Of a stretch of 64,000 nucleotides of DNA, positions 8,651 through 24,897 are shown in pieces (the first letter of the stretch is position 1; each line of letters starts with the position of its first letter). The position numbers were made by a program, and so were the translations under genes. The DNA comes from Nitrospira sp. GTDB lineage: Bacteria; Nitrospirota; Nitrospiria; Nitrospirales; Nitrospiraceae. Where the stretch lies: the NCBI GenBank assembly GCA_024998595.1, contig JACOEK010000005.1, forward strand, positions 62,001 through 126,000. The letters are read 5' to 3'. The notes under the pieces were generated by a model. It had not been told where the DNA came from and did no database searches. It saw only the letters and a program-made list of their open reading frames with translations.

Positions 8651-9082
8651 TTACTTGCTCTGTTCTTCCGGCACGGTTGGAGTCGATGGTTCCTGCTCAC
8701 CGTCGACACCTCGTCTCATGATCGGCGCATTCATGCCGGCCCTGGGGAAGCGTGGATTGTTCGGCGTGGGCGACACGACGGGCGCATTTTGCAGCATGCC
8801 GCCGGGGACCCTCGTCACGCCGCCCCTCGGACCCTTGAAGGCTTCGATCTGCTCGCAATCTTTCCCTCCCTGCGCATTCTGCACGCAGCACATGTAATCG
8901 CCGCTGGGAATACATTCGACCCAATGTCCCGGTTTGTCGGGACAGGTTGCCACTCCGATGGTGACGGGGCCTTGGCAGTTGTCGGGATTTTTGATCGGTA
9001 CGGCCAGCGCCGGGGCGGCGGCGACAATCACCCCGGACAGGAGTATCCCAAGCCTGGTTGTGTAAGAGAGGGGTCTAATCAT
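8651..9082 (-). CDS. Small secreted Cys-rich protein with C-terminal MRRGVDG motif
   Basis: A 143-residue protein with an excellent ribosome site (AGGAGG, then CCACC before ATG 9082) and a signal peptide ending at ALA (residue 27). Cysteines cluster at about residues 35-75 (DNCQG, ATCPD, VECIPSGDYMCCVQ, DCEQ), giving six. The C-terminus reads PIMRRGVDGEQEP with Arg124 (codon 8711-8713), 20 residues from the end, followed by a polar acidic tail. The tail is nearly identical to that of the protein at 9699 (PIMRRGVEGDQP), although the upstream domains differ. Family not recognised. Confidence 0.8.
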   Translation of the reverse strand: MIRPLSYTTRLGILLSGVIVAAAPALAVPIKNPDNCQGPVTIGVATCPDKPGHWVECIPSGDYMCCVQNAQGGKDCEQIEAFKGPRGGVTRVPGGMLQNAPVVSPTPNNPRFPRAGMNAPIMRRGVDGEQEPSTPTVPEEQSK

Positions 9083-9676: not shown

Positions 9677-9698
9677 GGTTACAGTCTTTCGCTCCCGG

Positions 9699-10193
9699 TT
9701 ACTTCCCTTCTTTCTCCGAGGACGTCGGTTGGTCGCCCTCCACTCCGCGCCGCATGATCGGCCCGCCCGGAGCCGGTACAGGCATTCGTCCTTGCGGGGG
9801 CGGTACCGGCTGAAGCTGCCCTTGGACACCGCCGGGAGGAAGTCTCATCTGGCTCTGCTGCTCTGTGCCCATACAATCTCTGGTCGTCCCCTGATGGGTC
9901 CCGGTGGGTGTGCTGGCCGTGCATGAATGGCCGAGGCATGCTTCCAGGCTTGATTCGGTAAATTGCACGGCACCGGACGGTCCGAAGTGCTCTTTTCCGA
10001 GTTCGTCCACCCAGCGACAGGCGCATTTGCACGACCAATACGTGTTTTTCTTAGGTCTAGCCCAACTGACGTCAGGTTGCGCCAGCAGACCGAGAACCGT
10101 GCACAAGCCCGTACCAACCATGACAAGCCAAAACCCTCGAGTTCGTGCGTTTGTCGAACCTACGATTCCCATGCAGGTGGTGGAAACTCTCAT
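9699..10193 (-). CDS. Small secreted Cys-rich protein with C-terminal MRRGVEG motif
   Basis: A 164-residue protein; GGAGGAGG precedes ATG 10193. The signal region is long (hydrophobic core about residues 21-39, GFWLVMVGTGLCTVLGLLA), with likely cleavage near SWA. Cysteines occur at SCKCACRW, EACLGHSC and RDCMG. A Gln/Pro/Gly-rich stretch leads to PIMRRGVEGDQP with Arg149 (codon 9747-9749), 16 residues from the end. It ends 22 bases before the next gene's ATG, so it is in one transcript with the protein at 9134. The family is not recognised. Confidence 0.78.
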   Translation of the reverse strand: MRVSTTCMGIVGSTNARTRGFWLVMVGTGLCTVLGLLAQPDVSWARPKKNTYWSCKCACRWVDELGKEHFGPSGAVQFTESSLEACLGHSCTASTPTGTHQGTTRDCMGTEQQSQMRLPPGGVQGQLQPVPPPQGRMPVPAPGGPIMRRGVEGDQPTSSEKEGK

Positions 10194-10318: not shown

Positions 10319-11485
10319 TCACAGCCCCACCATGACCAATTCGAATTTGGCGTTATAGCCAATCGACGGCGCGGCATTCGGGTCGCTGATCCTGGTCGAA
10401 ATCGAGGAGGACCCTGGACCAACAGCCAGGTAAAAGCCGCTGACCGTCTGGACGGTATAGGAGCAGTTAGGCTGTTCGACAATTTTGAACTTCTCCCAGG
10501 CCTGAACCTGTCGTGCGTCCGTATGCAGGTTGTCGCCGCTGGCGATGCCCCCTCCGCCTACTGCCGTGAGATAGTTCACCCCATTGGATGTTTGCAGCGC
10601 ATAAGACCCGTCGCCTTGCCTGATGAGCCTGAATCTGGATCCGGCTTGCAAGCCGCTGTACGCGGTCATGGCCTGGCTGGCCATGCCTCCTCCGTTGAAT
10701 GCGGTGAGGTAGCTCACAAAATCACCTTTCCCGGGAATATTTCCTGTCCCGGTGGGGCGAATGGCGTATTGGTAGCCGGACCCCAAATCACCGCATTTCA
10801 AGAAGTAAAAGTACTCCCACGTATTGGCCTGGACCGCGTCGGTATGGAACGCATCGGTCGATTTTCCGCCTCCACCGAGTGCGGTCAAAAAGTGCCCGTC
10901 GTAGGTCTTGATCGTGAAGGTGCCGGCAGCGCTGGGCCCGTCGATTCTGAACAGCGCAATATCACGTTGCGGTGTCTGGAGTTCGGTCTGAACACCCTGT
11001 GTCGTGTTGGGCGATCCACCCAGTCCACCCACCGCACTCACGAAGTATCCGCCGCTGGTTTGAATCGTAGTGTAATCCGGTTGGACCGTTGCGAGCCTAA
11101 ATCGCTGGTTGGGTCCGATCACGCTATCCAGTGTGATGACGGCGTCGATGCTGTGGTGCCCTCCATCACGGGCGGTCAGAGGCGTGTTCTTCAGGTACGA
11201 TCGTATGGCGAAATCGCCCGGTAACAAGCCGAACGCCGGCGGGTTCGATGCCGTGCTTGGTGTGGACGGAATCGGCGTCAACACCTGTGGTGAGGTCAGG
11301 CCTGGTCGGAGGGGTTTCGGAGTGACTCCCCGTTCTTGCACTTCGTCGGTCTGTGGTTGCCCCGTCGTGTCATCACTCTGGGCGATGGCGGCGGGCCTGG
11401 AATTCGATGAAGGCGATTCCGCAGCACAGCCGGCCCATCCCGCGAGCAACCAACCGGCGACAACAATGGCTAGATACCGGTTCAT
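10319..11485 (-). CDS. Probable lipoprotein with six fascin-like beta-trefoil repeats and N-terminal EVQERGV motif
   Basis: A 388-residue protein from ATG 11485 (GGAGGTGCAGC upstream). The signal ends LLAGWAGC, a fair lipobox (Cys20), though Trp at -3 is unusual. The linker contains DEVQERGVTPK with Arg52 (codon 11330-11332). Six repeats follow with the fascin-like pattern (for example HFLTALGGGGKSTDAFHTD and NYLTAVGGGGIASGDNLHTD with AWEKFKIV), two trefoils in total. It is clearly related to the protein at 5869, sharing the order of lipobox, linker, motif and repeats. Trefoil repeats 3 and 5 are the best conserved. Likely an outer envelope binding protein; ligand unknown. Confidence 0.83.
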   Translation of the reverse strand: MNRYLAIVVAGWLLAGWAGCAAESPSSNSRPAAIAQSDDTTGQPQTDEVQERGVTPKPLRPGLTSPQVLTPIPSTPSTASNPPAFGLLPGDFAIRSYLKNTPLTARDGGHHSIDAVITLDSVIGPNQRFRLATVQPDYTTIQTSGGYFVSAVGGLGGSPNTTQGVQTELQTPQRDIALFRIDGPSAAGTFTIKTYDGHFLTALGGGGKSTDAFHTDAVQANTWEYFYFLKCGDLGSGYQYAIRPTGTGNIPGKGDFVSYLTAFNGGGMASQAMTAYSGLQAGSRFRLIRQGDGSYALQTSNGVNYLTAVGGGGIASGDNLHTDARQVQAWEKFKIVEQPNCSYTVQTVSGFYLAVGPGSSSISTRISDPNAAPSIGYNAKFELVMVGL

Positions 11486-11673: not shown

Positions 11674-12429
11674 CTAGGGCTTGTGGCCTGCCCGCGCGAT
11701 CAATTCCTTCAGCCCGTTCAAGTCCAGCGCGCCCGGGACCAACTCCGTTCCGACGATGAATCCGGGCGTGCCGCTGATGCCGAGGGTGCGAGCCAGGGCG
11801 CGATTGGCGTCGATGACTGTTTGCCACTCGGGGTTGCGCATATCGGCTTCCAGTTTCTTCGTGTCGAGGCCCACGTCTCCGGCCATGCTCAACAGCGATT
11901 CTTTCGTGATCTCGCCTTTGAACGCCAACATGGCTTCGTGGAACACTTGGTGCTTGCCTTGCGCTTTGGAGGCCAACGCGGCTTTCGCCGCCAGTTCCGA
12001 CGCTTCGCCGAGGATGGGGAAATCCTTATAGATGACGCGCACGCGCGAGTCTTCGTGTTGCAACTGCGTCACGGCGCCCGCGGCGCGTTTGCAGAAGCCG
12101 CAGCGATAATCGAAAAATTCGACGAGTGTGATAGCTCCGGAAGGATTGCCGCTCACGGGGGATGCGGGATCATTGAGCAATTCGTGCTGATGGGCGGCCA
12201 GCGCCACTTTCTGCTTCGCTTTTTCCTCCACCTCACGTTTCGCTTCCAGCGCCTGCAGCGATTGCTCGATCACTTCCGGGTGGGCGCGGATGTATTGTTC
12301 AATTACCTGCTCCATTGATTGCCGTGCGGCAGGATCGAGTTCCGCTGCTAGGGTTGGTCCCGGCACAGTAACGTGCGCGGTCAACAGGGTCAGTACGGCG
12401 GCGACAATGAGGTGACGGCAGCGATTCAT
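11674..12429 (-). CDS. DsbA/ScsC-like periplasmic thiol-disulfide oxidoreductase
   Basis: A 251-residue protein; GAAGGAGAG precedes ATG 12429. Signal peptide to about LAA (residue 29). A helical N-terminal extension (about 30-90, QVIEQYIRAHPEVIEQSLQA) resembles the oligomerisation arm of ScsC/DsbG-like proteins. The thioredoxin fold follows with the active site CGFC (Cys110, Cys113) in VEFFDYRC and the cis-proline loop GISGTPGFIVG at about 214-224. By family it forms, shuffles or reduces disulfides in exported proteins. Its place immediately upstream of five genes of which three are Cys-rich suggests it acts on them. It carries no Arg-Gly signature. Confidence 0.9.
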   Translation of the reverse strand: MNRCRHLIVAAVLTLLTAHVTVPGPTLAAELDPAARQSMEQVIEQYIRAHPEVIEQSLQALEAKREVEEKAKQKVALAAHQHELLNDPASPVSGNPSGAITLVEFFDYRCGFCKRAAGAVTQLQHEDSRVRVIYKDFPILGEASELAAKAALASKAQGKHQVFHEAMLAFKGEITKESLLSMAGDVGLDTKKLEADMRNPEWQTVIDANRALARTLGISGTPGFIVGTELVPGALDLNGLKELIARAGHKP

Positions 12430-12747: not shown

Positions 12748-13215
12748 TCAGAACCGGCGCAGCGCTTTTTCTGCCAACGCCTTCACCTTTTCTTCATCGC
12801 CCGCGGTTTCCTGAATCGACACGTTGATGGTCGTGTGGCCCTTCTTGACGTAGAGATTCACGTAGTTGAGCCCATGCATCCCTCGGTCCGTGAAGGCCTC
12901 GTCTCCGAGCCCTTTCACCGTGACGGGATTCTTGGAGATGGCCCTGCCTCGCCCAATGGCCTCGGATGGAAACACCCACACCTCCATCGCGTCCTTGCCA
13001 TTGGCAAACTCGTAGTTGCACCAGGCGGCATCGCCTTCCTTGTCGCCCGTCGGTTTGCCCTTCAACGCACCGACGGTCTGCTCGACTTCGGCAATCGTCA
13101 GGAGGGCACAAGGATCGATATTGGGAGGCGCTGCCGATATTGGTGTTGGCGCGACCGAAACGAAAACAGCGAATGGCAGGCATGTGAATAAGACGCGCCG
13201 AGAAATTCGTATCAT
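12748..13215 (-). CDS. Small secreted protein, DPC-motif paralogue (DUF3558-like)
   Basis: A 155-residue protein taken from ATG 13215, which gives a standard signal peptide (MIRISRRVLF, cleavage after ISA near residue 28). An in-frame GTG at 13263 overlaps the stop codon of the upstream gene and is an alternative start. The mature part begins DPCALLTIAEVEQTVGALKGKPT and has GLGDEAF and a C-terminal DEEKVKALAEKAL helix. It matches its upstream neighbour at 13260 throughout, so the pair is a tandem duplication. Two cysteines probably pair. The fold resembles DUF3558-type surface domains, tentatively; function unknown. Confidence 0.75.
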   Translation of the reverse strand: MIRISRRVLFTCLPFAVFVSVAPTPISAAPPNIDPCALLTIAEVEQTVGALKGKPTGDKEGDAAWCNYEFANGKDAMEVWVFPSEAIGRGRAISKNPVTVKGLGDEAFTDRGMHGLNYVNLYVKKGHTTINVSIQETAGDEEKVKALAEKALRRF

Positions 13216-13259
13216 TGCCGACTCTTTCACGTTGCACCTTGGAAAACCAACTCGGCGAA

Positions 13260-13721
13260 TCACAACCGGCCTAGCGCTTTTTTCCCCAGGGTCTTCAGTT
13301 TCTCTTCGTCGCCAGGACTTTTTCTCGTCATGAGTACAATCAGAGTCGCTCCTTTCCTGATGTACAGATCCACGGCCTCCGGGTCGACCTTGCCCCGATC
13401 CATGAAAGCTTCATCACCCAGTCCACTGACCATGACCGGCTGTTTCGCATCCTTGTGCAACGCCTTCGACCAGGACGCCTCAGAAGCCCAGATTTCGAAC
13501 TCATTTTTCTCGTCGGCAAAGTCGTAGCCGCATCTCACCCCATGGCCCAGTGTTTCGCTGGTCGGTGTGCCTTTGAGCTTGCCTATCACCTGTTCGACCT
13601 CTGCCGTGGTCACCAGCGAACAGGGATCTGGCGGGCCGGCCTGGCTTGGCTGAGCGATGAGCGCGCTGCAGAGGCACAGTGATGCGTACAACAACAGGAG
13701 AGGACGTGAGCGTCGCCGCAT
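13260..13721 (-). CDS. Small secreted protein, DPC-motif paralogue (DUF3558-like)
   Basis: A 153-residue protein with a signal peptide ending near SQA (residue 27). It starts its mature part with DPCSLVTTAEVEQVIGKLKGTPT and ends DEEKLKTLGKKALGRL, closely matching the protein at 12748. Shared landmarks are the two cysteines, GLGDEAFMDRG and the charged C-terminal helix. The gene lies 61 bases downstream of the DPW-family gene at 13783 and is followed almost without gap by its paralogue. Neither paralogue has the Arg-Gly signature. Role unknown. Confidence 0.75.
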   Translation of the reverse strand: MRRRSRPLLLLYASLCLCSALIAQPSQAGPPDPCSLVTTAEVEQVIGKLKGTPTSETLGHGVRCGYDFADEKNEFEIWASEASWSKALHKDAKQPVMVSGLGDEAFMDRGKVDPEAVDLYIRKGATLIVLMTRKSPGDEEKLKTLGKKALGRL

Positions 13722-13782: not shown

Positions 13783-14766
13783 TCATCGAACGACTCCCGG
13801 ACTGAATGCCTTCGGGCCTGGTTGGATGGCCTTGTTCATGGCGATCACGGTGAATTCCACCGGTGCAGACCAGCGCGTCGGTTTCGGGGACAACACTTGT
13901 GCACTGATCCGGTAGGCACCGCGGCCGGCGATCATCGCCGGGCCTTTGCCGTTTCCAGGAGCGCCCCACCCTGTATACCCGGTCGGTGAGGTCGCCTCTG
14001 CCACGTTGACCGGCAGGTTGTTGAAGACCGCCCAATTGCCCTGACCATCCCGTCGCTCAAGCCTCACCATGAAGCCCGTGACCTGCATTCCCGGCGGGGG
14101 AAGAAGTTTAATGGGAATGGTCGTGTTCTCCAGGAACGAGGCGTTGACGGCAGGAAGAACGATCGCAGGCGTGACCACGGCAGGTCCTTGCTTGGCCGCG
14201 CCCAGGAGTTGTTGATTCTGTTTTTGCAGAGCGGCGGCCGCGTCCATTTCGGCCTTGAGTGCGGCATCCCGCTGAGCGATGAGGGGCGGGCGATTGTAAC
14301 TAAAGCCTGTGGAATTGGGTAAGGAAGATCCGGCGAATCCGTCTCTCAACCAGTCGAGCCAGAAACGGGCTCGAGTATTTTGTACTTGTCCACTCACATT
14401 GAACGATCCATTTGAACAGGCTACCTTTCCCGCGCCAAGAGGCGGGCCAAGCCAGGGATCGCTCGGACAGGTCAGGGTTGTCGTGGCGGTGGCGGAGAAG
14501 CCCTGGACCAGGGACACATGCACCTCTTCTCTTGCCATTCCCGTGCGGGGATCATACGAACCACGAGAGTCCCAATTCACGAATCCGGCCGGCACTGCGC
14601 TACACGAGGTCGTGACATGATAGCTGGAGAGGGCGGCCTTGAAGTTTGCCTCGACACGGGGTGGACCACATTGTATGGCGGGCTGTTCTGCATATGCGGA
14701 ATCGACGATGACTAAGATAATGGCCGTTGCCATCAACAGCACACTGCTACGCCAATGAGGGCGCAT
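13783..14766 (-). CDS. Secreted DPW-family protein with C-terminal Fn3-like domain and PKAF tail
   Basis: A 327-residue protein; AAAGGAGGATCT precedes ATG 14766. Signal peptide to AYA (residue 26). N-terminal domain (about 30-125) has C33, the F-x-A-x-x-S-x-Y pattern, C55 and the family mark TCPSDPWLG (Asp103-Pro-Trp105) with a later Cys. A helical linker of about 60 residues (ALKAEMDAAAALQKQNQQ) leads to a beta-sandwich domain (about 225-315) with FMVRLERRDGQGNW, GYTGWG and AYRISAQVLSPKPTRWS. It ends IQPGPKAFSPG. The proteins at 18703 and 19924 share all of these. Likely an extracellular structural or binding protein; no Arg-Gly signature. Confidence 0.8.
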   Translation of the reverse strand: MRPHWRSSVLLMATAIILVIVDSAYAEQPAIQCGPPRVEANFKAALSSYHVTTSCSAVPAGFVNWDSRGSYDPRTGMAREEVHVSLVQGFSATATTTLTCPSDPWLGPPLGAGKVACSNGSFNVSGQVQNTRARFWLDWLRDGFAGSSLPNSTGFSYNRPPLIAQRDAALKAEMDAAAALQKQNQQLLGAAKQGPAVVTPAIVLPAVNASFLENTTIPIKLLPPPGMQVTGFMVRLERRDGQGNWAVFNNLPVNVAEATSPTGYTGWGAPGNGKGPAMIAGRGAYRISAQVLSPKPTRWSAPVEFTVIAMNKAIQPGPKAFSPGVVR

Positions 14767-14814
14767 AGATCCTCCTTTTATGACCGAATACTTTTCAGAC
14801 TGTTCCATGTTTGA

Positions 14815-16122
14815 TCATGGCGTCTTCTGCGGTTCAGATCGAGTATCGGCCTCAGTGCCTTGTTTCACGTCTTTCTCTTCGACTCCGCGTGGCCGGACTA
14901 GGGGGCCGCCGGCAGCACCTCCCTGCGAGGAAGTCGCCGGAGGTCGAATGACCGACGGCCCGACGCCTACGGGTGCCGAAGGAGTCTGCATGATCGATGC
15001 GCCGGGCAGCGGTGTTTGCTGCAGCGCAGGAGTATGAGATTTTTGCGACTGGGTTCCTTGCGCCACCCCGAGCTGGAACTGGACGGGATTGCTCCAGGGG
15101 CCCGGAGGGGTCTTCATGGCCGATCGTGCCCGCACCTGCCAGCGACCGGGATAGGCTCCCGTGACGATCGGAGCCACCAGATATCCCTGGATCAGTTTCG
15201 GGGTGTCCACGGCAATGATGGTGACATAGGGATAAGAATCTTTTTGAGGTGCGGGTGCGTCCAGGTAGCGCAGTTCCAACTCGGCCACATTGGTCACGCC
15301 GACTTTAGGAGGAAGGGCGGCGATCAGCAATTGTCCCTGCACGACCCTCTCCTGCGCGACCGGCTTCGTGATCACGAACAGATCGTCAGGAACCCTCAAA
15401 TTCCTGGCCTGGGGATTCAAGGGCATGGATGATGGAGGCGCCTGTACGAGTGGAGTGGCAAGCTTTCCCGCCGGGGCACCGACACGAGCCGGCGTCGGGG
15501 CGCAGATCAGCCCGAGGGAGTCGATGAAGAGCCCCGCACGCACACGAAACCCCGATGCGATCTCGCCCGGCCGGCACCCATGCGGATACGGTCCCTTGGT
15601 CACTCGTTCTTCAGCGGTCGCAGTGGGATTCCCAAAATCGAACAGAGCGATGGCCTGAGCAGGGCTCAATGAGATGCAGTGAATTTCGACGTATTGCACG
15701 GGCGGATTCGGCGATCTGACGGTCTCGACGTACCAAGACTGGATGGCGAGGCTCTTGTTGCCGGATTCCCAACAGGTTCGCTGCCGGTCTTGGCCCCCTC
15801 CGCTGGCGCCGAAGGACGGACCGATCGTCGGCGATCCAAAAGCTTGTGAGCCTCTCAACCAAGGCGCGCAGATCGGCGCGATGCGATCGACCCATTCTCC
15901 TGTTCGACCGGCCAAGCCTACAAGATAGGAGCCTTGCGGACACTCAGCCCGGAACAGATTCCCGCCGGGGCCACCGACCAACTCCAGATCGGTGGCAGAG
16001 GACAAGAAGGGCCAGAAGCAAAGGCCCACGAGGAGAACAACAGCAAGCAGCGAGCGGTGGCACGGTGCAGCAGGCTTCCAGCCAGGCGGTACCCATCGAG
16101 CTGAAGCATCGATTGAGATCAT
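14815..16122 (-). CDS. Secreted two-domain protein with Fn3-like domain and C-terminal PRGVEE motif
   Basis: A 435-residue protein. Start ATG 16122 overlaps the stop codon of the preceding gene (ATGA), so I reject the longer frame. Hydrophobic export signal at about residues 24-45. Two related segments, CPQGSYLVGLAGRTGEWVDRI...IC and HGCRPGEIASGFRVRAGLFIDSLGLIC, resemble the jacalin-like 'G-x-x-G-x-x-x-D-x-I-x-x-I-C' repeats found in other secreted proteins. A beta-sandwich domain (about 255-360) with ELRYLDAPAPQ and GRWQVRARS matches that of the protein at 16119. It ends with VRPRGVEEKDV, Arg412 (codon 14887-14889), exactly 24 residues from the C-terminus, as in its coupled neighbour. Function unknown. 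Confidence 0.78.
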   Translation of the reverse strand: MISIDASARWVPPGWKPAAPCHRSLLAVVLLVGLCFWPFLSSATDLELVGGPGGNLFRAECPQGSYLVGLAGRTGEWVDRIAPICAPWLRGSQAFGSPTIGPSFGASGGGQDRQRTCWESGNKSLAIQSWYVETVRSPNPPVQYVEIHCISLSPAQAIALFDFGNPTATAEERVTKGPYPHGCRPGEIASGFRVRAGLFIDSLGLICAPTPARVGAPAGKLATPLVQAPPSSMPLNPQARNLRVPDDLFVITKPVAQERVVQGQLLIAALPPKVGVTNVAELELRYLDAPAPQKDSYPYVTIIAVDTPKLIQGYLVAPIVTGAYPGRWQVRARSAMKTPPGPWSNPVQFQLGVAQGTQSQKSHTPALQQTPLPGASIMQTPSAPVGVGPSVIRPPATSSQGGAAGGPLVRPRGVEEKDVKQGTEADTRSEPQKTP

Positions 16123-17312
16123 CGATGGTCTCCCGGCTCCGTCGGCGTAGGTGAGGAATGATGGCCCTCGCGGGTGTCTTCTTCGAGACCACGCGGACGA
16201 ATGACCGTCGTGCCGGCTCCGAATCGTTCCGATGGACCCTTGAGAAACGGCGAAGCCGGCGATGGCGCCTGGATCGATTGGTTTTGTTGCCCCGGTACGA
16301 GATTGAACGACGCGGGGGCGCTCCAGGGCCCGGCCACCGCCCCCTGAGCGATCATTCGTACGCGCACTTCCCAATGGCCGTAGTTGAGCCGCGTCACCTT
16401 CGGATCGATATAGTGACCTTGCAGCAATGTAGCCGTGTCCATGGCGGGAATCGTATTGACGAAACGAGGCTGCCCTGCCGGGGTGTCGAGCCACGCGAAT
16501 TCCAGCTCCGACACCGGCTCTTTCCCCACCATCGGCGGCTGAATCTTGACCAGCAGTTGGCCGACCACCACGGTGGCTCCCGACGCAGGGCTGAGGATTC
16601 GAGGTATCTGTCGCGAAAGAATGGCATCAGAGGTTTTTGGAGCACCGGGGGTGAAAGGGCCTACGCCGGCGCCCTGGGGCTTCGACAGGGTTGTTTGAGA
16701 CGGGTCGAACTTTTGCTGTGCCGCCATGGCGATCTGATACTGCTTGTCGAGCGCCGCGCGCTGCATGGGATTGAGTTTGAACGACAGCGGCAGGCCGGGA
16801 GCGTCCTGCAGCAATTGTTGGTACGCCATGGAGAGGTATCCCTGAAACGAGGGCGGTGCCGCCTGTCTCGTCACGAGGCGACAGGGACCGTTGGGCAGGC
16901 CACGCCATGGGTCGGAGCCGCATTGCATGGTGGAGTGCACGGTTCCTGTGGCCGTTTTACCAAACTCCGTCAACCCGAGCGTCATCGTTTCAAACGTTGC
17001 CTTTGTATTCGGTTGGTGGCTTCCCTGGGCTGTCCAGTTGACGCTGCCATATTGCAGCTGTTCGATTACTCCCTTGGAGTGGGTTTCAAAGAGTAAACAC
17101 ATTCCTGTGGCCACATAGTCGGAACTCGATGCTTTGTATGTGCCGCTGATCGTGCTCACCGAGCAGGCCATGGACAGTTGACCCACGACGGCCGGTTCGT
17201 TCGCCGCAGCGATTCCGACGGGGATCGTTGCGGCACATTGAAGAGATGCGCAGCACAGCATGCGTTTCCAGCCCGGTAGCCGTTGCGTCCCTCGCGCCTT
17301 CGTGAACGCCAT
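16119..17312 (-). CDS. Secreted DPW-family protein with Fn3-like domain and C-terminal PRGLEE motif
   Basis: A 397-residue protein with a signal peptide (cleavage near AAA, residue 37). N-terminal domain has C50, a Y-x-A-x-x-S-x-Y-x-x-T-G-x-C pattern (Cys72) and QCGSDPWRG (Asp134-Pro-Trp136). A linker with QYQIAMAAQQKFDP leads to a beta-sandwich domain (about 245-350) with SELEFAWLDTPAGQP, LLQGHYIDPKV and GHWEVRVRM, matching the protein at 14815. The tail reads VIRPRGLEEDTRE with Arg374 (codon 16191-16193), 24 residues from the end. The stop overlaps the next start. This gene links the DPW family to the Arg-Gly-tailed family. Confidence 0.8.
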   Translation of the reverse strand: MAFTKARGTQRLPGWKRMLCCASLQCAATIPVGIAAANEPAVVGQLSMACSVSTISGTYKASSSDYVATGMCLLFETHSKGVIEQLQYGSVNWTAQGSHQPNTKATFETMTLGLTEFGKTATGTVHSTMQCGSDPWRGLPNGPCRLVTRQAAPPSFQGYLSMAYQQLLQDAPGLPLSFKLNPMQRAALDKQYQIAMAAQQKFDPSQTTLSKPQGAGVGPFTPGAPKTSDAILSRQIPRILSPASGATVVVGQLLVKIQPPMVGKEPVSELEFAWLDTPAGQPRFVNTIPAMDTATLLQGHYIDPKVTRLNYGHWEVRVRMIAQGAVAGPWSAPASFNLVPGQQNQSIQAPSPASPFLKGPSERFGAGTTVIRPRGLEEDTREGHHSSPTPTEPGDHR

Positions 17313-17327
17313 CTCGTTTCTTTCCTC

Positions 17328-18662
17328 TTACGGGGCACTGGCAAGGGGCACCGTGCAAGGCACCGGAATCCAGCGGGGACCAATGTCTGCCGGGTTCGGC
17401 CGGCAAGCGGGCAAGACGCCACGTGATTGTGTTGACGCTGATCGAATGGCTTCCTGCAGTGTCTTGTCGGGAACTGTCGTTGCCAGGTCGGTGCCGCGAG
17501 ATGTTTCTGAGCGTGAAGCCCGCGCGTCGAAACGCCTGCCGTCGGGTGTCAGGAGAATGAGGTGTATCTGCCCAGACTCGCCCGGAACGCCCATGGCGAG
17601 CGGGTGCTGGAGCGATTCGTTGTGTCCCGAGCGACGGGCATGCAGGAGCACCGTCGGTTGGCCCTCCTTGGCCAGCCCGATCTGGACGTCGAGCACCGGT
17701 TGCACGTCGTAGGTGCCAGGCGAGAGGACGGCGGATGCACCCGTTGCAGTGGTGACGTAAAGCGGACGGTCGATCGTCAATACAATCGGCTGGGTGATCT
17801 CCGGTGCTCCTTCTTCCAGTGCGGCTGCGTCCGAGGTTTCCCCTCTCTCGGCTTGCGTCTCATTGGGCTGTTGGCCCGATGTCTGCTCCTCTTGTCCCTC
17901 CACACCTCTTGCGAATATTCCGGACCGAGCCAGATTGCTCGCTGCTGTGTTCGACTTGGGGAGAGTCGTCTGCGGCTGCACAGTCATGGCTTGAAGGCGC
18001 TGGGACTGGGTGATCACTTGGGATTGTTGCGCTTGCGCCGTCATATTCTGCACACGCGACTGTTGCAATGCCGGCTGATTTGCCGCCTGGTATTGGTTGA
18101 TCAGTTGTTGCTTGAGGGCAGGGGAGATCCTTTTTCCCGTCAGAGGAAATGGTCTGGTACCGATGTTGGGGAACGCGGTCTTCAGATCGTCCGGCATATA
18201 TTCGCCAAAACGACTGCAGGTGCCGTCCTGCAGCCACGGATCCGTCGTGCAGCTTCCTGTCCAATACATGAAGATCTTGCCTCCCGGCGCCCGGTCTGGC
18301 AGGAAAGGCTCGTACCCAGTGATGGTGAGGGATTCGGATGCATTCGGACGATCCCGTCTCGTTTCCGACGGCGTCCAGCTCCCTTCCCAAGTGAACGTCA
18401 TTACGCCGGGTCTCGCGGTGCTGGTACATCTCATCGAGAAAGGGTATTTCGCTGCGCCTTTCGGGGCGGCCAGGAATGTCGGAGCGGTGGTCATGACCGC
18501 GTTCGAGCAGTTGATCGGGACTTCCGCATTCCCTTCATGCACGGAAAGCAATTGCCCGAGTGCGTCCACATGCGTGGGAGCTGCGGGTATGCTCTGCAGT
18601 ACCGCGATCCCGAGCACTCCTGCGATCCATCCTCGGCCAACGTGTCTTGCTGCATGTCCCAT
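17328..18662 (-). CDS. Secreted DPW-family protein with central ARGVEG motif
   Basis: A 444-residue protein with an export signal (hydrophobic about residues 12-28). The N-terminal domain holds INCSNAV, SMRC and SCTTDPWLQDGTC (Asp141-Pro-Trp143). Residues of about 180-240 are Gln-rich and probably helical or disordered (QQSRVQNMTAQAQQSQ). The Arg-Gly signature sits here in mid-protein, GIFARGVEGQEEQ with Arg252 (codon 17907-17909), followed by 40 acidic residues. A second beta-rich domain (about 300-390, LTIDRPLYVTTATGA and LHLILLTPDGRRF-like strand) ends with two cysteines. Cleavage at Arg252 would split the protein into its two domains. Family otherwise unknown. Confidence 0.78.
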   Translation of the reverse strand: MGHAARHVGRGWIAGVLGIAVLQSIPAAPTHVDALGQLLSVHEGNAEVPINCSNAVMTTAPTFLAAPKGAAKYPFSMRCTSTARPGVMTFTWEGSWTPSETRRDRPNASESLTITGYEPFLPDRAPGGKIFMYWTGSCTTDPWLQDGTCSRFGEYMPDDLKTAFPNIGTRPFPLTGKRISPALKQQLINQYQAANQPALQQSRVQNMTAQAQQSQVITQSQRLQAMTVQPQTTLPKSNTAASNLARSGIFARGVEGQEEQTSGQQPNETQAERGETSDAAALEEGAPEITQPIVLTIDRPLYVTTATGASAVLSPGTYDVQPVLDVQIGLAKEGQPTVLLHARRSGHNESLQHPLAMGVPGESGQIHLILLTPDGRRFDARASRSETSRGTDLATTVPDKTLQEAIRSASTQSRGVLPACRPNPADIGPRWIPVPCTVPLASAP

Positions 18663-18702
18663 CGAGACCTCCTTGGCATCGCGCCTTGGGCCGCTCTCAG
18701 GA

Positions 18703-19806
18703 TTATTTTGCGAACGATTTCACGGCCGGTTGGAAAATCTTACTGGTCGGCGGCGCCATGACGCCGAACTCAACCCAGTCGCTCCATCCGGACTGTTGCG
18801 GCGTTGTTACCTGGGCACTCAACCGCCATGCGCCAGGTATTGATAAGAAGGCCGGCGGGGCCCCCCCGCCGAAGCCCGTATACCCGGTCGCCGACTCCGC
18901 TTGAGCGGCTCCGACGGGCAGCGTGGCATGCGGTACCCATTGTCCGTTGGAGTCTTTCCGTTCTAGCCTCACCATGTATCCGCTCACACTCTTCGCCGTC
19001 TTGACGGGGGTTCCGTCGAGGCGAACTTCCGTATCGGCCCATGGTTGAGGGGGCGCTAACCTGATCGAGATGGGAGATTGGTTAAAGAACCGCTGCCCCG
19101 CGGTGGGCGCCATGATGATCGGAGAGAGGCTCATACGATAGGGCGTCAGCGTCTGCGTTGCTGAGCGCAGGCGTTTCTCGGCCTGTGCCTTGGCCAATGC
19201 CGCTGCCTCGGCTTTCAAATCCGTGTCCCGTTTCGCCGCTAAGGCAGTTCGTTCTGCCGGCATCAAGACCCAGGCCGACATGGGTTTGTAGGCTCTCCAG
19301 GCATTGAAGAGATCGCTGAGAGTGGGGAGAGGTTTCCCATCCTGGTACTTTCTGGGGTATGCCTCGGAGGGACTATTGTCCATTCGGTTCAGGATCTGGC
19401 ACTTCACCCGGAGACTTTCCGGGCTGAACGGAGGACCGTCCATCGTGAGCCAGGGATCGGACGGACATGAATAGGTGGTCCGCCAGGTCCCGTAGGGATG
19501 ACTCGGCTGTGAGATCGGAGCGGGAGTCACTTCAATGAGTTCCTCCGCGACATTGTTCGAATAGGCCCCGTGAACTGTGTAGGGAAACGTTCGCGGTGCT
19601 CCCAGTGAGCCGGATGTCGTGCAGGTTCCGGTTGACAGGTATTGCGCCTTGGTCGAAGAGAAGCTCCCGACGAGGTTCTGAGTAGCGGTGCTGCAGGGCG
19701 CGGAGCCGACGCCAGTGAATCCGAGACTGAAGGCATGGCCCGGCACGAGGACGGTCATGGCCAGTCCGAGACCGAAGGCGAGGCAACGAGCGCGATGAAT
19801 GGTCAT
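18703..19806 (-). CDS. Secreted DPW-family protein with Fn3-like domain and PKSF-like tail
   Basis: A 367-residue protein with a signal peptide (cleavage near HAFS, residue 27). N-terminal domain has C38, SFSSTKAQYLSTGTC (Cys62) and SCPSDPWLT (Asp117-Pro-Trp119). A coiled linker (LKAEAAALAKAQAEKRL, about 190-215) precedes the beta-sandwich domain with YMVRLERKDSNGQW, GYTGFGGG and WRLSAQVTTPQQSGWS. It ends FQPAVKSFAK. It is closest to the proteins at 13783 and 19924. A ribosome site, AGGATGAGGAGCC, lies before ATG 19806. Gap of 40 bases to the next gene. Confidence 0.8.
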   Translation of the reverse strand: MTIHRARCLAFGLGLAMTVLVPGHAFSLGFTGVGSAPCSTATQNLVGSFSSTKAQYLSTGTCTTSGSLGAPRTFPYTVHGAYSNNVAEELIEVTPAPISQPSHPYGTWRTTYSCPSDPWLTMDGPPFSPESLRVKCQILNRMDNSPSEAYPRKYQDGKPLPTLSDLFNAWRAYKPMSAWVLMPAERTALAAKRDTDLKAEAAALAKAQAEKRLRSATQTLTPYRMSLSPIIMAPTAGQRFFNQSPISIRLAPPQPWADTEVRLDGTPVKTAKSVSGYMVRLERKDSNGQWVPHATLPVGAAQAESATGYTGFGGGAPPAFLSIPGAWRLSAQVTTPQQSGWSDWVEFGVMAPPTSKIFQPAVKSFAK

Positions 19807-19923
19807 GGTGGCTCCTCATCCTGGAAAAGTCCGTATGGGTCTTTCCTCATCGAACTTGTTGACCTCTCCCTCCCCACGCGAAATAAGCATTCTGTGCATG
19901 TCGTCCCCGCCTCATCCCCCTCG

Positions 19924-20949
19924 TTATGGTCCGAAGGATTTTGGAATTCGCTGAATGGTGTTATTCGGAGCCATCACCACGAACTCAACGCCCTGACTCC
20001 AGCCAGTTTGTTGGGGGGCCGAGACTTGGGCCGTCATCCGATACGTTCCGGGAGAGGCCATCAGAGAAAGGCTTCTCCCATCCGGCCCGCCGGCGCCCCA
20101 TCCAAGGTACCCAGAAGGGGACGATGCCTGGGCGAGGCCTATCGGAAGGGTGGTGACAGGAGTCCAACTCCCACCCGGGTTTTTCCGTTCGATTTTTACT
20201 GTGTAGAGGGTGACCGTCAGCCGTCCAGGAGGCGGGGCAAGTTTGATCGGCACGGTTGTCATGCTGAGGTAGCGCGACCCCGCCGTCGGGGAGACCAGCA
20301 AAGGGGCGAGATTCTCGAGCAGGGTCGACCCTGGCTGCACCCGTTGCTGGAGCTTCTGAGCCTCCTTTCGGGCCGCTTCTTGTGCGAGACGCGCCGTTTC
20401 GGCAATGGCCTGTTGCTCCGCGAGGAGGTCTTTCGGTCGTTGGGCCACAAGGGCCGCGCGATCGTAAGGGAATCCGGTTGTGTTTGGTTTCAAGGACGTT
20501 TCAAAACCACCGCGCAGAAATGCGGTCAAATAGGCGAGGGTTTCGGCTTCTCCCCCAGCGGAAAAGGCCGGTTGTGTGCAGGCTGCTTTTCCCGTGACCA
20601 GCCAGGGATCTTCTACGCAGGCCAATCTGGTTTGAATCTTTCCCCGATAGGGCGGGTTGCCGTTCAGCATGATGGTTTCTTCCACCTTTGCCAGTCCCGG
20701 TGCATAGGCCCCTTCTGACGTCCAGGGAATCGGGATGACTTCCACACGATTCTCATACTCCAACCGTTGGTCGCATCGTCCTGACATGCGATAGGTGGAC
20801 TTAGCCGCTGTGAACTTCGCTTGAATCGATTCAAGATGACAGCCGACCGTCGTCAATGGATAGATCCTGACGACGACGCCTGCTGCACCGGCTTGTCCAA
20901 CGAGAGCCGACAGTATGAACAATAATGCGACGCAGCTTTTCCCCGTCAT
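19924..20949 (-). CDS. Secreted DPW-family protein with Fn3-like domain and PKSF tail, coupled to lnt
   Basis: A 341-residue protein. Start ATG 20949 overlaps the stop codon of the N-acyltransferase gene (ATGA) and is preceded by GGAAGGAACC; the much longer open frame upstream is the shadow of that gene. Signal peptide to GAAG (residue 23). C37, FTAAKSTYRMSGRC (Cys59) and ACVEDPWLV (Asp114-Pro-Trp116) define the family. A charged coiled linker (about 175-205) leads to the beta-sandwich domain with YTVKIERKNPGGSW, GYLGWGAGG and YRMTAQVSAPQQTGWS. The end is NNTIQRIPKSFGP. Likely extracellular; role unknown. Confidence 0.82.
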   Translation of the reverse strand: MTGKSCVALLFILSALVGQAGAAGVVVRIYPLTTVGCHLESIQAKFTAAKSTYRMSGRCDQRLEYENRVEVIPIPWTSEGAYAPGLAKVEETIMLNGNPPYRGKIQTRLACVEDPWLVTGKAACTQPAFSAGGEAETLAYLTAFLRGGFETSLKPNTTGFPYDRAALVAQRPKDLLAEQQAIAETARLAQEAARKEAQKLQQRVQPGSTLLENLAPLLVSPTAGSRYLSMTTVPIKLAPPPGRLTVTLYTVKIERKNPGGSWTPVTTLPIGLAQASSPSGYLGWGAGGPDGRSLSLMASPGTYRMTAQVSAPQQTGWSQGVEFVVMAPNNTIQRIPKSFGP

Positions 20950-22637
20950 GAGGTTCCTTCCTTCGTTCCGATGCAGTGGCGAGGCAGTATGTCGCCTCCT
21001 GTCACTTCCGGAGTGGTCCGTCTCACGGCGCTTCGACTGCGGGCGGTCATGGAAGAGACCGGAACTGTCCTCGGGCGCGTCCTCAGCCAATCGAACAATG
21101 TCCACCGCTGGTGCCCGACGTGAGATAAACGCGTCAAGAGAAAGTGCCCCAGGATTGCAACGAGGGGTGTGAGAAGAACGAACCAATCCCCGGTTCTGGA
21201 ATAGACTGTGCCTCCTCCGCCGAGGGCGACGACACCGGCGGTGGTCGATTCCAGGAAGCTCCCCGATGTGGTGACGACCACCCGGCCATAGCCATCGATC
21301 ACTTGCGATGGCCCGGTGTTTGAGGCGATCACGACCGGCGTTCGAGTCTCCACCGCGCGCATGACCGACATGAGATTGTGCTGTCTCGGGGCGGCGGTCT
21401 GGCCGAACCACACATCGTTCGTCAATTGCACCAACAGTTGTGCGCCTGAGTTGACGGACTCACGGGCAAGTTCCGAGAAAAGATTCTCCCAGCAGATCAA
21501 GGTGCCGACAGAAATCCGAGGTGCGAGAGTGAAGATCTGCCCGTTGTCACCGGCTGTCAGTTCCGTGATTCGCGGGGCGAGCCACTCCGGCCAGGGAATG
21601 ACGTCGGCATGCGGCAGATATTCGGCAAACGGCACCAGCATGCGTTTACGATAGGGGGGCGAGGTAGAGCCGCTTGGCTGGAAGAGATGCGCGGTGTTGA
21701 ACGCTCGCCGGCCGATAGTGAGCAGACTGTCCCCCGTCGCGAACTTCTCCACTTGGGCCGCTCCGAGGATCAACGGCACCCCGGTCTCACGGCTCAAGCG
21801 CTGCAGTCGTGAGATCAAGGACGGGTCGGAGAGATCCCCGGGAATGGCGCTTTCCGGCCAGACGATCAAGTCCGGCTGCGAAGAAGCCGCCTCTCGGGTC
21901 AATCGTTCGAGTCGAGTCAGGTTGGCGTCGCGGCCTGCTTCGGTCGTGCGGTCGCCGATTTGAATGTTCGGTTGGATAGCCGTAACGGTAATAGACCTGC
22001 CCGATGTGGATGAGAAGAGTTCGGTGACACCCCAGGCGTGGACTGTGATGAGGATGAGGAGCGTGGTTACGGCCAACCTGCGTTCCTGCCTGAGGCAGAG
22101 GGTAGCAAGGGCGGCATTGCCCAACGCTACCAAGAACGAGACGCCATGCTCGCCGATCACTCCGGCTGCCTGCAGCAGCGGGAGGTTGTGGTGTTGCGTC
22201 TGGGCGAGGGTGCCCCAAGGTAGGGCCAGAAACCCCGCGTGCGCGCGGAGGTAGTCGATCAGCAGCCAAAAAACGGGCGCGCAGACGATCAGGGGAATGT
22301 GCTGCCGCAGCGCCCACGCCGTGGCCGATGCCCAAATTGCCGGATAGGCGCCGACGTAAAGGGCGAGCACGACCGCATGGCGCAGATCGAAACTCGGCAC
22401 TTCGAAGAGCCAGCCGTAGATGCCGAAGCTGGCGAAAACTCCGGTCAGCAACCCTAGTGAGGCCGCCTGACCAGGCCTGAGCCCTTGCATGGCCAGGAGA
22501 AGCGGGACCAGAGCGACCCAGCCCAGCGACCCGATATCCGGTGAGGGGAGAGAGGCGACCAGCAGCGCCGCAGACAACAGTGCCAATCCGACACCTGTGC
22601 TCAGCTCGGCCACGCGCTGCCGCCGATGTGCCGTCAT
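20946..22637 (-). CDS. lnt: Apolipoprotein N-acyltransferase
   Basis: A 563-residue integral membrane enzyme that adds the third acyl chain to lipoproteins. N-terminal membrane segments fill residues of about 12-205. The carbon-nitrogen hydrolase domain follows with the catalytic triad Glu262 (WPESAIPG), Lys331 (YRKRMLVPFAEYLP) and Cys382 (LICWENLF), spaced as in E. coli (267, 335, 387). A last membrane helix is at about 500-520, then an Arg-rich tail of about 40 residues. ATG 22637 is chosen over GTG 22658. The gene is translationally coupled to a DPW-family gene, so it belongs to the exported block, in which at least two proteins have lipoboxes. Whether another lnt exists elsewhere cannot be seen. 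Confidence 0.93.
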   Translation of the reverse strand: MTAHRRQRVAELSTGVGLALLSAALLVASLPSPDIGSLGWVALVPLLLAMQGLRPGQAASLGLLTGVFASFGIYGWLFEVPSFDLRHAVVLALYVGAYPAIWASATAWALRQHIPLIVCAPVFWLLIDYLRAHAGFLALPWGTLAQTQHHNLPLLQAAGVIGEHGVSFLVALGNAALATLCLRQERRLAVTTLLILITVHAWGVTELFSSTSGRSITVTAIQPNIQIGDRTTEAGRDANLTRLERLTREAASSQPDLIVWPESAIPGDLSDPSLISRLQRLSRETGVPLILGAAQVEKFATGDSLLTIGRRAFNTAHLFQPSGSTSPPYRKRMLVPFAEYLPHADVIPWPEWLAPRITELTAGDNGQIFTLAPRISVGTLICWENLFSELARESVNSGAQLLVQLTNDVWFGQTAAPRQHNLMSVMRAVETRTPVVIASNTGPSQVIDGYGRVVVTTSGSFLESTTAGVVALGGGGTVYSRTGDWFVLLTPLVAILGHFLLTRLSHVGHQRWTLFDWLRTRPRTVPVSSMTARSRSAVRRTTPEVTGGDILPRHCIGTKEGTS

Positions 22638-22723
22638 TCCGACCCCTTTTCCGATCACAAGGTTCTCCGCGTCAGTTCACTGTTGCCTGCTGGTTTCTGT
22701 AGGTGTTCCTGCCGACAGCACCA

Positions 22724-24103
22724 TCACTCTCCCCGCGGGATAACGACTTGAGGTGGAGGAATGCGCTGCAACCCTGGAAGGGTGTTTGAGCGCAAGTCGC
22801 CCAGGGCATTGACGGGGTCCTCGCCGGACGGACCCTTCAACGTCAGTTTGACGAGAGAGGGTTGCTGGTCCGCACGCGTTAAGTCGGGAGCTGTGATGCA
22901 GTTCACCGCGGCGAAGGAGCCTATTACTGGAGCAGGCGGCGGCGATCTGAATTCGTAGACCAATCGTCGCCAGGAGAGGGTTCGTTTCAACGCACGCGCT
23001 CCGCAATAGGGACAACTCGCTTCCGAATACTTGTCGTACACAACCGCCGGCGCTGTACCTTTTTGAAACGCACGGGCGGGCAACGGCGGGAGACCGGGAA
23101 ACGATCCATCGATGTCCAACAGTTGCCAGAAGAGCATGAGATCGGGGCCATCGAAGACGTCGACACTGGCGGAGACATCTTCCACCACCGTGTTACTCAC
23201 GCGCGCATCCCCAACTGGATTTGACGGCAACAGCATGGCGTTGTTCGAGCAGTAGGTCTTATCCTTTTTGTTGAATTTGAATTCATTTCTGAACTGGTAG
23301 CCACGCGTCTTCGCCGCCGCAACGAATCGGTCCAAGGCCTGTCCCTTCAGTTCATAGGTGACAAGTTGAGCGGGCTCGAGCACCACACTGATCGCGCGCG
23401 CGTGCGACACGCATCCGTTCAGAGCGAGGCTCGTCTGTAAATAGAGATGATGGGTGCCATAGTGCGGTTCAGTCAGGGTAAAATTCGTGGTCAACACCGG
23501 CGTGGTGACCGGGTGCCAGGCGACGTTCTTTTTGGCAAAGGCCGTATCAGGATTGAACTGCGATTCAGGATAGCGCTCTGCCGCGGTGAATTCCGTCAGG
23601 CGAAAGAACGCCGGCTTTTCAGAAAACCCGGCCACAACGCCCACTGTGCGATTGGTCGTTTTTAATCCACCTGCCACTTCGAGATTGGTAATTCTGTCGC
23701 AGCCGGTATTTCCACCGGTGGCTGTGCCGGCAAGACCGCCGCAAAAGCTGGGCAAGGGTGTTGCTTGACCGGGCACGAGAACAATGCGCTGCTCAACGGC
23801 GGCCATGTTGATCGTCGCTTGGTTGTTCAGGAACCCGTTACGCGAGGTCCGTACCGTGGCAGGTCCTCCTGCGGTTGAGCCTACCGGGAGCGAGAAGTTG
23901 TACCGCCCGTTTTGATCGGTCATTTTCTGAATGCCGAACTCCGGGGTGCTGATGCACAGGTTGACGTTGGAAATGGGCGTTCCGTTCTGGTCGGTGACAA
24001 AAATCTGGACCGCCTCAGCCTTCGTCGGCATGAGCAGGAAAAGACCGCCGGCCATCGCGCACAAGGCGCGCATCATCCACGCTGTGGCAGGGAGATATGG
24101 CAT
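22724..24103 (-). CDS. Secreted protein with carboxypeptidase-regulatory-like domain
   Basis: A 459-residue protein. ATG 24103 with AAGGAGAATAAGG upstream is preferred over two in-frame upstream starts. Signal peptide to AEA (about residue 30). The first domain (about 31-105: VQIFVTDQNGTPISNVNLCI ... DQNGRYNFSLPVGS ... VRTSRNGF) is a carboxypeptidase-regulatory-like beta-sandwich often found in surface proteins. The remaining 350 residues are not recognised; they contain a CPYCGAR pair and several single cysteines. It ends IPPPQVVIPRGE, an Arg-Gly at the very end that I do not count as the shared signature. Between the FecR gene and lnt in the same direction. Confidence 0.72.
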   Translation of the reverse strand: MPYLPATAWMMRALCAMAGGLFLLMPTKAEAVQIFVTDQNGTPISNVNLCISTPEFGIQKMTDQNGRYNFSLPVGSTAGGPATVRTSRNGFLNNQATINMAAVEQRIVLVPGQATPLPSFCGGLAGTATGGNTGCDRITNLEVAGGLKTTNRTVGVVAGFSEKPAFFRLTEFTAAERYPESQFNPDTAFAKKNVAWHPVTTPVLTTNFTLTEPHYGTHHLYLQTSLALNGCVSHARAISVVLEPAQLVTYELKGQALDRFVAAAKTRGYQFRNEFKFNKKDKTYCSNNAMLLPSNPVGDARVSNTVVEDVSASVDVFDGPDLMLFWQLLDIDGSFPGLPPLPARAFQKGTAPAVVYDKYSEASCPYCGARALKRTLSWRRLVYEFRSPPPAPVIGSFAAVNCITAPDLTRADQQPSLVKLTLKGPSGEDPVNALGDLRSNTLPGLQRIPPPQVVIPRGE

Positions 24104-24255: not shown

Positions 24256-24897
24256 CTACTGCACCGGCGCCGAGGGCGGAATGAGCGTGCTGGTCCAGGC
24301 TTTCGCGGCCTTCGCGTCGCTGTCGGCCGGCTTCGTGCATTTCTTCCCCCGCACGCCGTAACTGATCGTGTTGGTCCGGATCGGACAGGTTCCAAAGGCA
24401 GTGCCGAATTGTACGACGCCTTCGATCACGGTGAGAATGCTCTGGCCGTCCGGCTGGACTTTCAAATTGAACTCCGTCTCCTTCACCGCCGCCGTGGCGA
24501 CCGGGGTTTCCACCTCGAACGCCTTCGGCCCGTCGCCGGCGGTTTTTGCCCACACTTCGCCCTGGCTGAGCCGGAGAATCCAGGTGGTCGGCTTGTCTTT
24601 TTGCCAGCGCGAGAGAATCTTGAAGGAGGTCTCTTCGTTGAGCGCGACGTTGACGCCTTGTTTGAGTTGAATGTAGGCCTGACTCGACGCATCCGTCTTG
24701 AGCACGTCGCCTTCATAGAGCGGCATGGTCTTTCGGCCCTGGAGCTGTTCCTCCACGCCGTCGGCCCGGATGATGGTCAACGTCCCGATGGCATTGATGG
24801 CCCATCCCACCGGAGCGTTTGCGGCAAATGCCGACAGGCTTGTCGCAATGATGATTGCTGTGATTGTCACTGTCCTCGTCATGAACGATTGCGTCAT
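24256..24897 (-). CDS. FecR-domain periplasmic protein
   Basis: A 213-residue protein; GGAGGAAGAT precedes ATG 24897. Signal peptide to AFA (residue 25). FecR-type domain at about residues 30-160: WAINAIGTLTIIRADGVEEQL, PLYEGDVLKTDASSQAYIQLKQGVNVALNEETSFKI, and LSQGEVWAKT with VETPVATAAVKETEFNL. This module binds or senses outside the cytoplasm and occurs in many secreted proteins as well as in iron signalling. Here there is no membrane anchor and no sigma factor next to it. Two cysteines in the C-terminal part (FGTCPIR, KKCTK) may pair. Confidence 0.85.
   Translation of the reverse strand: MTQSFMTRTVTITAIIIATSLSAFAANAPVGWAINAIGTLTIIRADGVEEQLQGRKTMPLYEGDVLKTDASSQAYIQLKQGVNVALNEETSFKILSRWQKDKPTTWILRLSQGEVWAKTAGDGPKAFEVETPVATAAVKETEFNLKVQPDGQSILTVIEGVVQFGTAFGTCPIRTNTISYGVRGKKCTKPADSDAKAAKAWTSTLIPPSAPVQ

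Follow-up and report, generated by a model that had tools for sequence, protein, structure and literature searches.

Why do five strongly diverged genes for secreted proteins lie close together in one bacterial genome? The question is raised by a stretch of 64,000 nucleotides of Nitrospira sp. DNA (contig JACOEK010000005.1, positions 62,001 to 126,000), called the window here. The window was assigned to a Nitrospira-type genome, and its nearest named relative in our comparison is Nitrospira sp. MAG_246 (VOPR01000004.1). The five proteins, which carry the mark Cys-x(2,3)-Asp-Pro-Trp and are called DPW proteins, are one cargo class of a conserved Nitrospirales gene island, and two of them share with many unrelated island proteins a short peptide tag built around RG[VI][ED]. 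A preliminary description of the five genes covered neither the island membership nor this shared tag, which we now take as the unifying feature. We tentatively favor, with a probability of roughly 45%, the reading that the tags are Arg-specific processing sites cut by the metacaspase of the island, which would mature or release the cargo.

The five open reading frames (ORFs) singled out earlier are all present on the minus strand, and a sixth gene (P0006) lies between P0001 and P0002. It has an Fn3-like domain in common with P0002 (BLASTP E-value 2e-18) and a different N-terminal domain, and its start overlaps the P0002 stop (ATGA), as read from the sequence. The six genes and the tags within them are as follows.

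13783..14766, minus strand: P0001, with a signal peptide, DPW domain, helical linker and Fn3-like domain, without the RGVE tag
14815..16122, minus strand: P0006, with a jacalin-like-looking N-terminal domain, Fn3-like domain and RGVE tag
14878..14889, minus strand: RGVE of P0006, 24 residues from the C-terminus (VRPRGVEEKD..)
16119..17312, minus strand: P0002, with a DPW domain, Fn3-like domain and RGLE tag
16182..16193, minus strand: RGLE of P0002, 24 residues from the C-terminus (VIRPRGLEEDT..)
17328..18662, minus strand: P0003, with a DPW domain, a long linker that carries RGVE, and a different C-terminal domain (..LLPDG..)
17898..17909, minus strand: RGVE of P0003, in the inter-domain linker, ARSGIFARGVEG
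18703..19806, minus strand: P0004, with a DPW domain and Fn3-like domain, without the tag
19924..20949, minus strand: P0005, with a DPW domain, helical linker and Fn3-like domain, without the tag; modeled with AlphaFold2

The C-terminal tag (C-tag) has the form hydrophobic-x-x-R-G-[VIL]-[ED] and usually lies ~21 residues before the C-terminus, ahead of an acidic, Pro-rich and Arg-poor tail. A sister form, the N-tag [DE]VQER[GA]V (e.g. GEVQERGV), is found near mature N-termini. Examples from the cargo are NAPIMRRGVDGEQ, GGPLVRPRGVEEK, TTVIRPRGLEED and SGIFARGVEGQ.

Pfam matches and gene maps of related loci reveal a recurrent core of the island: a signal-peptide WD40-Peptidase_C14 protein, a YNCE propeller and a FecR protein. 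In the family to which the window belongs, Lnt-like, DPW/Fn3, DUF3558-like, DsbA-like and beta-trefoil genes come after this core, as do genes for small Cys-containing exported proteins. Housekeeping genes adjoin the core in another family of the order (L075-L084). The core trio of the window is made up of these genes.

24256..24897, minus strand: FecR-domain protein
24960..25955, minus strand: YNCE-like beta-propeller lipoprotein
26020..29115, minus strand: P0012, a secreted WD40 - Ig-like - Peptidase_C14 protein of the metacaspase type (His in YYAGHG, Cys in SDSCYSG)

How strongly are the tags tied to such islands? Among 406 genes of island-type loci, 52 encode the C-tag, 43 the N-tag and 8 both, although 52 of 406 is a description and not a genome-wide rate because the loci were chosen around islands. 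After removal of the tails, the 52 C-tagged proteins fall into 16 families (single-linkage BLASTP at 1e-4). The island in the window holds four C-tags and three N-tags in 19 called genes. Genes of the fetched loci come from our own codon-usage caller, which truncated some starts and missed the window genes at 9134 and 9699; these two were added by hand and contribute one tag each. Controls evaluated with the same caller and the same expressions are nearly free of tags. The own genome outside the window (~393 kb) yields one C-tag and one N-tag in 339 genes, and neither tag is present in the remainder of the window (28 genes), at nine of the ten trio loci of family f4 (108 genes; L082 left out), or at three same-genus loci that carry YNCE and FecR with no adjacent caspase (39 genes). 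Loci L069 and L082, in which the core trio but no tag was seen, are part of neither the 406 nor the 108 genes. Reversed and scrambled versions of the motif gave no enrichment near the C-termini of the cluster proteins.

The 52 C-tags are encoded by 41 different 12-mers that use all four CGN codons, which argues for selection at the peptide level. A nucleotide-level artefact, such as the ribosome-binding site of the next gene, is ruled out by this codon diversity and by the distance of the tag from the stop. The tails that follow the tag range from 10 to 41 residues (mode 21-23) and are rich in Glu (16.3%) and Pro (16.5%), with little Leu (1.0%), Ile (1.4%) or Arg (1.5%, versus a background of 5.8%). 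Arg is entirely missing from 40 of the 52 tails, compared with 76 of 319 untagged C-termini.

Such tails could be functionless remnants of a C-terminal segment that was spread by duplication and fusion within the island. Non-homologous proteins of genus g2 indeed have a whole tail (..TVD.P.E.EKKP) in common, as from fusion, and island proteins clearly combine the DPW, Fn3 and LLPDG-type modules in shuffled arrangements. However, tails from different genomes are otherwise dissimilar, whereas R-G does not vary and the choice of residues at the two positions after it is restricted. In the linker between the two domains of P0003-type proteins, RSG..RGV is likewise among the best conserved blocks of six orthologs, although the surrounding linker diverges. 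We therefore regard remnants as a very unlikely explanation.

An alternative with more to recommend it is that RG[VI][ED] serves as a targeting or docking signal for an export or surface-assembly machine, such as the YNCE propeller or a partner in the outer membrane, and that it includes no protease site. Tagged proteins look exported, as evident by a hydrophobic N-terminal stretch in 74 of 87 of them versus 111 of 339 control genes. Most tags are held at a nearly fixed distance from the C-terminus, as sorting signals are, and co-occurrence with the tag is as good for the YNCE and FecR genes as for the caspase gene. Cutting nevertheless fits better with a motif that also stands between folded domains (P0003-type proteins) and, in its sister form, near mature N-termini, and an Arg-poor tail behind an invariant Arg is what a protease site would be expected to look like. 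A docking signal is thus possible but, in our judgment, rather unlikely.

If the tags are processing sites, the island itself encodes a candidate enzyme. The WD40-caspase P0012 falls within Peptidase C14, as evident by its match to PF00656 (E-value 2.3e-19) and the presence of the His/Cys dyad. Its catalytic domain aligns with metacaspases of solved structure (AtMC4, 6w8s; yeast Mca1, 4f6o) with E-values of 3e-8 to 3e-6, and the catalytic His and Cys and the Asp of the DSC motif coincide in P0012 and these proteins. All three residues are kept in 25 of 25 caspase orthologs. Metacaspases cut after Arg or Lys, according to passages in two sources (PMC4357240; PMC3501461). In its catalytic domain P0012 is like the metacaspases of Peptidase family C14B, for which a basic P1 residue is noted in the first of these passages (PMC4357240), but it differs from them in being secreted and fused to WD40 and Ig-like domains. 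The island caspase may be a C14B-like metacaspase with a predicted specificity for Arg/Lys. Just ahead of the C14 domain, within the Ig-like region, all 25 orthologs also carry RG[VI]xV, which may be a self-processing site or may be merely structural, as in a beta-turn. In a comparison with known anti-phage defense systems, PADLOC matched the WD40-caspase to its 'caspase' and HEAT-ARM_XIII models, and nine other island proteins submitted to it gave no match. A striking metacaspase expansion is seen in G011, a genome of the same family, with 19 C14 matches at E-values of 1e-10 or below.

An association between tag and caspase is also observed across genomes. A profile of 18 tag peptides from 9 genomes was searched over 235 Nitrospirales genomes, of which 17 gave matches at E-values of 1e-3 or below. 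At 0.5 or below the number rises to 126, and therefore weak matches are noise. An ortholog of the caspase (E-value 1e-80 or below) is present in 25 of the 235 genomes. Strong tag matches occur in 16 of these 25 versus 1 of the 210 others (Fisher 1.4e-17), and in 7 of 16 versus 1 of 210 when the nine genomes that supplied the profile are removed (p 1.6e-8), although these p-values are optimistic because the genomes are related. In the own genome, the six matches better than E 0.001 are all in the island and are all among the profile peptides; two weaker matches (E-values 0.016 and 0.13) lie elsewhere.

Could another Arg-specific protease cut the tag, such as a C14 paralog, a periplasmic trypsin-like enzyme or an external protease, and the island caspase have a different role? 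Paralogs of C14 are common, with many in each of these genomes, so another enzyme could act on the tag, and relatives of the caspase occur without tags. Trypsin-like proteins are encoded in related islands, and the own genome has eight PF00089 matches, all on contigs other than that of the island. Trypsin has Asp at position 189, which is the rule for Arg/Lys specificity. The trypsin-like island proteins carry Ser in 9 of 10 cases and Ala in 1 of 10 at this position, and none has Asp. Because of this residue they are unlikely Arg-cutters and are disfavored as candidates for that role. Moreover, they are themselves tagged, eight of them with both tags, and it is in genomes with this particular caspase ortholog that tags concentrate. 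We consider it unlikely that a different protease is responsible.

Several observations nevertheless weigh against cleavage of the tag by the island metacaspase, in addition to the abundance of C14 paralogs, the equally good co-occurrence of YNCE and FecR, and the limits on the locus counts and p-values given above. Three of the five DPW proteins (P0001, P0004 and P0005) carry no tag. Nine of the 25 caspase genomes lack a tag match at E-values of 1e-3 or below; one of them, G205, has clear tags on inspection (L086, L087), but no tag was seen in the near-complete genomes G207 and G211 and in other caspase genomes without a strong match. Conversely, G027 (72% complete) has tags and, at the 1e-80 threshold, no caspase ortholog, only more distant C14 proteins. 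Among six genomes outside the order with caspase relatives (48-53% identity), no tag match was better than E 0.08. Furthermore, we infer the cleavage and the identity of the enzyme from sequence patterns, and our search of the literature found no paper that describes this tag and no report of its cleavage.

Processing by the metacaspase would proceed as follows. The cargo would be exported, with many proteins carrying a tag at the C-terminus, between domains or near the mature N-terminus. The metacaspase would then cut after the tag Arg (R|G), in the periplasm or at the surface, and thereby remove a tail or propeptide or separate domains, so that the cargo would be matured or released. Once matured, the proteins would most likely bind or adhere in the envelope or the extracellular matrix. 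The core trio is accompanied in the island by lectin-like, Fn3, Ig-like and small Cys-rich exported proteins and by DsbA-like and Lnt-like genes of the island's own.

By analogy with known attachment machines, the island might even be a sortase-like surface-attachment system, in which the metacaspase would cleave R|G[VI][ED] and attach the Arg exposed at the new C-terminus to a surface acceptor, and YNCE would play a PorZ-like role. We regard this as a long shot. PorU is a clan CD cysteine peptidase, and the C-terminal domain (CTD) of type IX secretion system cargo is larger than the tails described here. Cargo of the type IX PorU/PorZ attachment complex has a C-terminal signal, which is removed, and is handled by a sortase together with a double beta-propeller protein (PMC8545088). 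The likeness lies in a clan CD cysteine peptidase, a beta-propeller partner and cargo with a conserved C-terminal signal. The island tag differs in being a short peptide with a tail of 10-41 residues and no folded CTD, and the peptidase is C14 rather than C25. No component of a type IX system was found, in that a PF01364 search of the own genome gave no match, although no control genome matched either.

The PEP-CTERM/EpsH (exosortase) system offers a second comparison. Passages in its description report a short C-terminal tag on diverse exported proteins that was tied to an enzyme by phylogenetic profile (PMC1569441), and the island tag is alike in these respects and in occurring several times per genome. 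Unlike that of PEP-CTERM, its motif is followed by neither a transmembrane helix nor a basic cluster, the tails being acidic and Pro-rich, and the tagged genes are clustered rather than scattered, with tags also in mid-chain and near N-termini. Because it lacks the helix and basic cluster, and because its tails are too short for a folded CTD, we file the tag under neither PEP-CTERM nor the type IX system. Bacterial gasdermin-protease pairs also place a caspase-like protease beside a substrate that loses a short C-terminal peptide. In contrast to these, the island proteins are exported and the tag is common to many unrelated putative substrates; no gasdermin was found by Pfam among the proteins scanned.

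Do the DPW proteins themselves constitute a family? The C-x(2,3)-DPW mark is present in all five window proteins, as the preliminary description had it, and is kept in 33 of 33 called DPW-domain genes from nine genomes. The longer motif proposed along with it, C..(F/Y)xAxxSxYxx(T/S)GxC, is exact in P0002 and P0005 and inexact in the other three: alignments show one deviating position in P0001 and two in P0004, and in P0003 an insertion of three residues along with other changes. Homology extends well beyond the DPW tripeptide. P0001, P0004 and P0005 match one another in BLASTP with E-values of 1e-22 to 1e-55 and P0002 joins them at 2e-6 to 1e-3 (database size set by us), and the divergent P0003 is matched at 4e-10 by a profile of 28 other DPW domains from which its own subfamily was excluded. 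A search of Pfam and NCBIfam with hmmscan found no model for the DPW region, in keeping with the earlier remark that no named family was known to bear this mark; the window proteins gave only chance-level matches, all outside the DPW region and below the cut-offs. The five proteins are a genuine, previously unnamed family of exported bacterial proteins that is new in the libraries searched.

The Fn3-like domain attributed to four of the five proteins is borne out by profile and, for residues 210-329 of P0005, also by predicted structure; in the other members the assignment is by profile only. The AlphaFold2 model of P0005 (mean pLDDT 67) starts with a beta domain of six strands, continues in long helices and ends in a sandwich at the C-terminus. 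The predicted fold of residues 210-329 resembles the Fn3 domain of CbhA (3pdg/3pdd; VIA Z 9.9, rmsd 2.5 over 90 residues), but differs from fibronectin type III modules in giving no Pfam Fn3 match even at an E-value of 10. For the DPW domain alone (AlphaFold2 model from 9 sequences, pLDDT 66) the best Foldseek E-value is 0.27 and the best VIA Z is 4.4, neither of them a convincing match. We make no claim of a new fold because the model is only moderate and the absence of a structural match is no proof. DPW proteins are exported and probably disulfide-stapled beta-modules, in which a six-stranded DPW domain is joined by a helical linker to an Fn3-like module.

P0001 ends in a conserved ..IQ..PK.F motif, and the untagged DPW-Fn3 proteins in general (P0001, P0004, P0005 and homologs) end in a conserved peptide of their own, approximately [NS]K.[IV]Q..PK.FG[PQ]. 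A single ORF of G083 (L044:2311-4641) consists of two DPW-Fn3 units fused head-to-tail. In G116, the P0005 ortholog (L016, G116:C5:18561-19574) has an in-frame TGA, and the called ORF ends within the Fn3-like domain. The N-terminal module of P0006 has repeats resembling GGxGGxxFxxxCPxGxxLVGLxGRxGxxVDRIxxIC and is jacalin-like in look, with a Pfam Jacalin E-value of only 0.25. This module is found in several tagged proteins (window:14815-16122; L073:3577-5331 and 8385-10067; L074:10971-12728).

How old is this arrangement? DPW profile matches are found in 11 of the 235 Nitrospirales genomes, all 11 within the 29 that carry the YNCE propeller at E-values of 1e-60 or below. In a sample of the phylum 9 of 395 genomes match, and the sole one outside the order is a weak match of the Fn3 part. 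In a tree of 34 DPW domains, in which several forks are weak and long branches meet, the window paralogs group with orthologs from other genomes and genera rather than with one another, and the 16119 and 18703 proteins group also with proteins of G230, from another family of the order. Because the paralogs sit with orthologs of other genera, they are older than the genera that hold them, as the long-lived tandem expansion first proposed would predict. The YNCE protein is 92% identical to that of G014, from another genus, but only 58-60% identical to those of G030, G077 and G098 from the same genus. This patchy distribution, together with the high identity across genera, is suggestive of horizontal transfer or of repeated loss. 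A plasmid search for a mobile-element origin gave no plasmid match.

The remaining genes of the island in the window, several of which carry tags, are listed below.

5324..5779, minus strand: small exported protein, family F8, with RGVE at 5420-5431
5869..7101, minus strand: DUF7910/RicinB-like lipoprotein, with N-tag GEVQERGV at 6898-6918
7460..8479, minus strand: exported protein, family F10, with N-tag GEIQERGI at 8288-8308
8651..9082, minus strand: small exported protein, with C-terminal RGVD at 8702-8713 (PIMRRGVDGEQ)
9134..9685, minus strand: small Cys-rich exported protein, with N-tag EEVQERGV at 9521-9541
9699..10193, minus strand: small exported protein, with C-terminal RGVE at 9738-9749 (PIMRRGVEGDQ)
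10319..11485, minus strand: beta-trefoil (RicinB-like) lipoprotein, with N-tag DEVQERGV at 11324-11344
11674..12429, minus strand: DsbA/ScsC-like thioredoxin, a putative disulfide catalyst for Cys-containing cargo
12748..13263, minus strand: DUF3558-like small exported protein (Pfam match below the curated cut-off)
13260..13721, minus strand: DUF3558-like small exported protein (Pfam match below the curated cut-off)
20946..22658, minus strand: Lnt-like (apolipoprotein N-acyltransferase) gene, which overlaps the P0005 start at 20949 by 4 bp
22724..24103, minus strand: CarboxypepD_reg-like domain secreted protein, with C-terminus VVIPRGE

Homologs of the CarboxypepD_reg-like protein elsewhere carry the full tag (LILPRGVDEKE). 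Of the 11 DPW genomes, 10 show DsbA-like genes at the loci that were fetched; in G230, covered by two fragments, none was seen. Other tagged proteins have Tcp10_C-like repeats (PLPDGT..YPDG) at L034:3956-5809 and L043:8350-9939 (Pfam E-value 4.7e-15 for L043). A recurrent lipoprotein family of the islands (L073:13120-14127, with relatives in L070, L071 and L074) has the conserved end NPCCISAKRKS..E..GN.G, and its L073 member has a PAN_4 domain. At the far end of the window (window:2-2170, minus strand) lie genes for a small Peptidase_C14 protein, a zinc-finger anti-sigma factor and an ECF sigma factor, and a pair that looks similar on visual inspection of the protein ends is seen at the island of G001 (L099:1-1617), hinting at ECF control of the island. 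Acetate kinase and then phosphoketolase (XFP) genes adjoin the island at window:29812-33523.

We know of no substrates for most bacterial metacaspases. These enzymes are abundant in bacteria, according to a passage in one of the sources cited above (PMC3501461). If the tag is a substrate code, the natural targets of a bacterial metacaspase would be readable from sequence and testable with peptides. Processing of this kind would add a new tag-based scheme of protein maturation and would offer a route to the exported, possibly adhesive, proteins of the main nitrite-oxidizing bacteria of wastewater and soils. Were the sortase-like alternative true, the tag would represent an independently evolved C-terminal sorting signal in Gram-negative-type envelopes.

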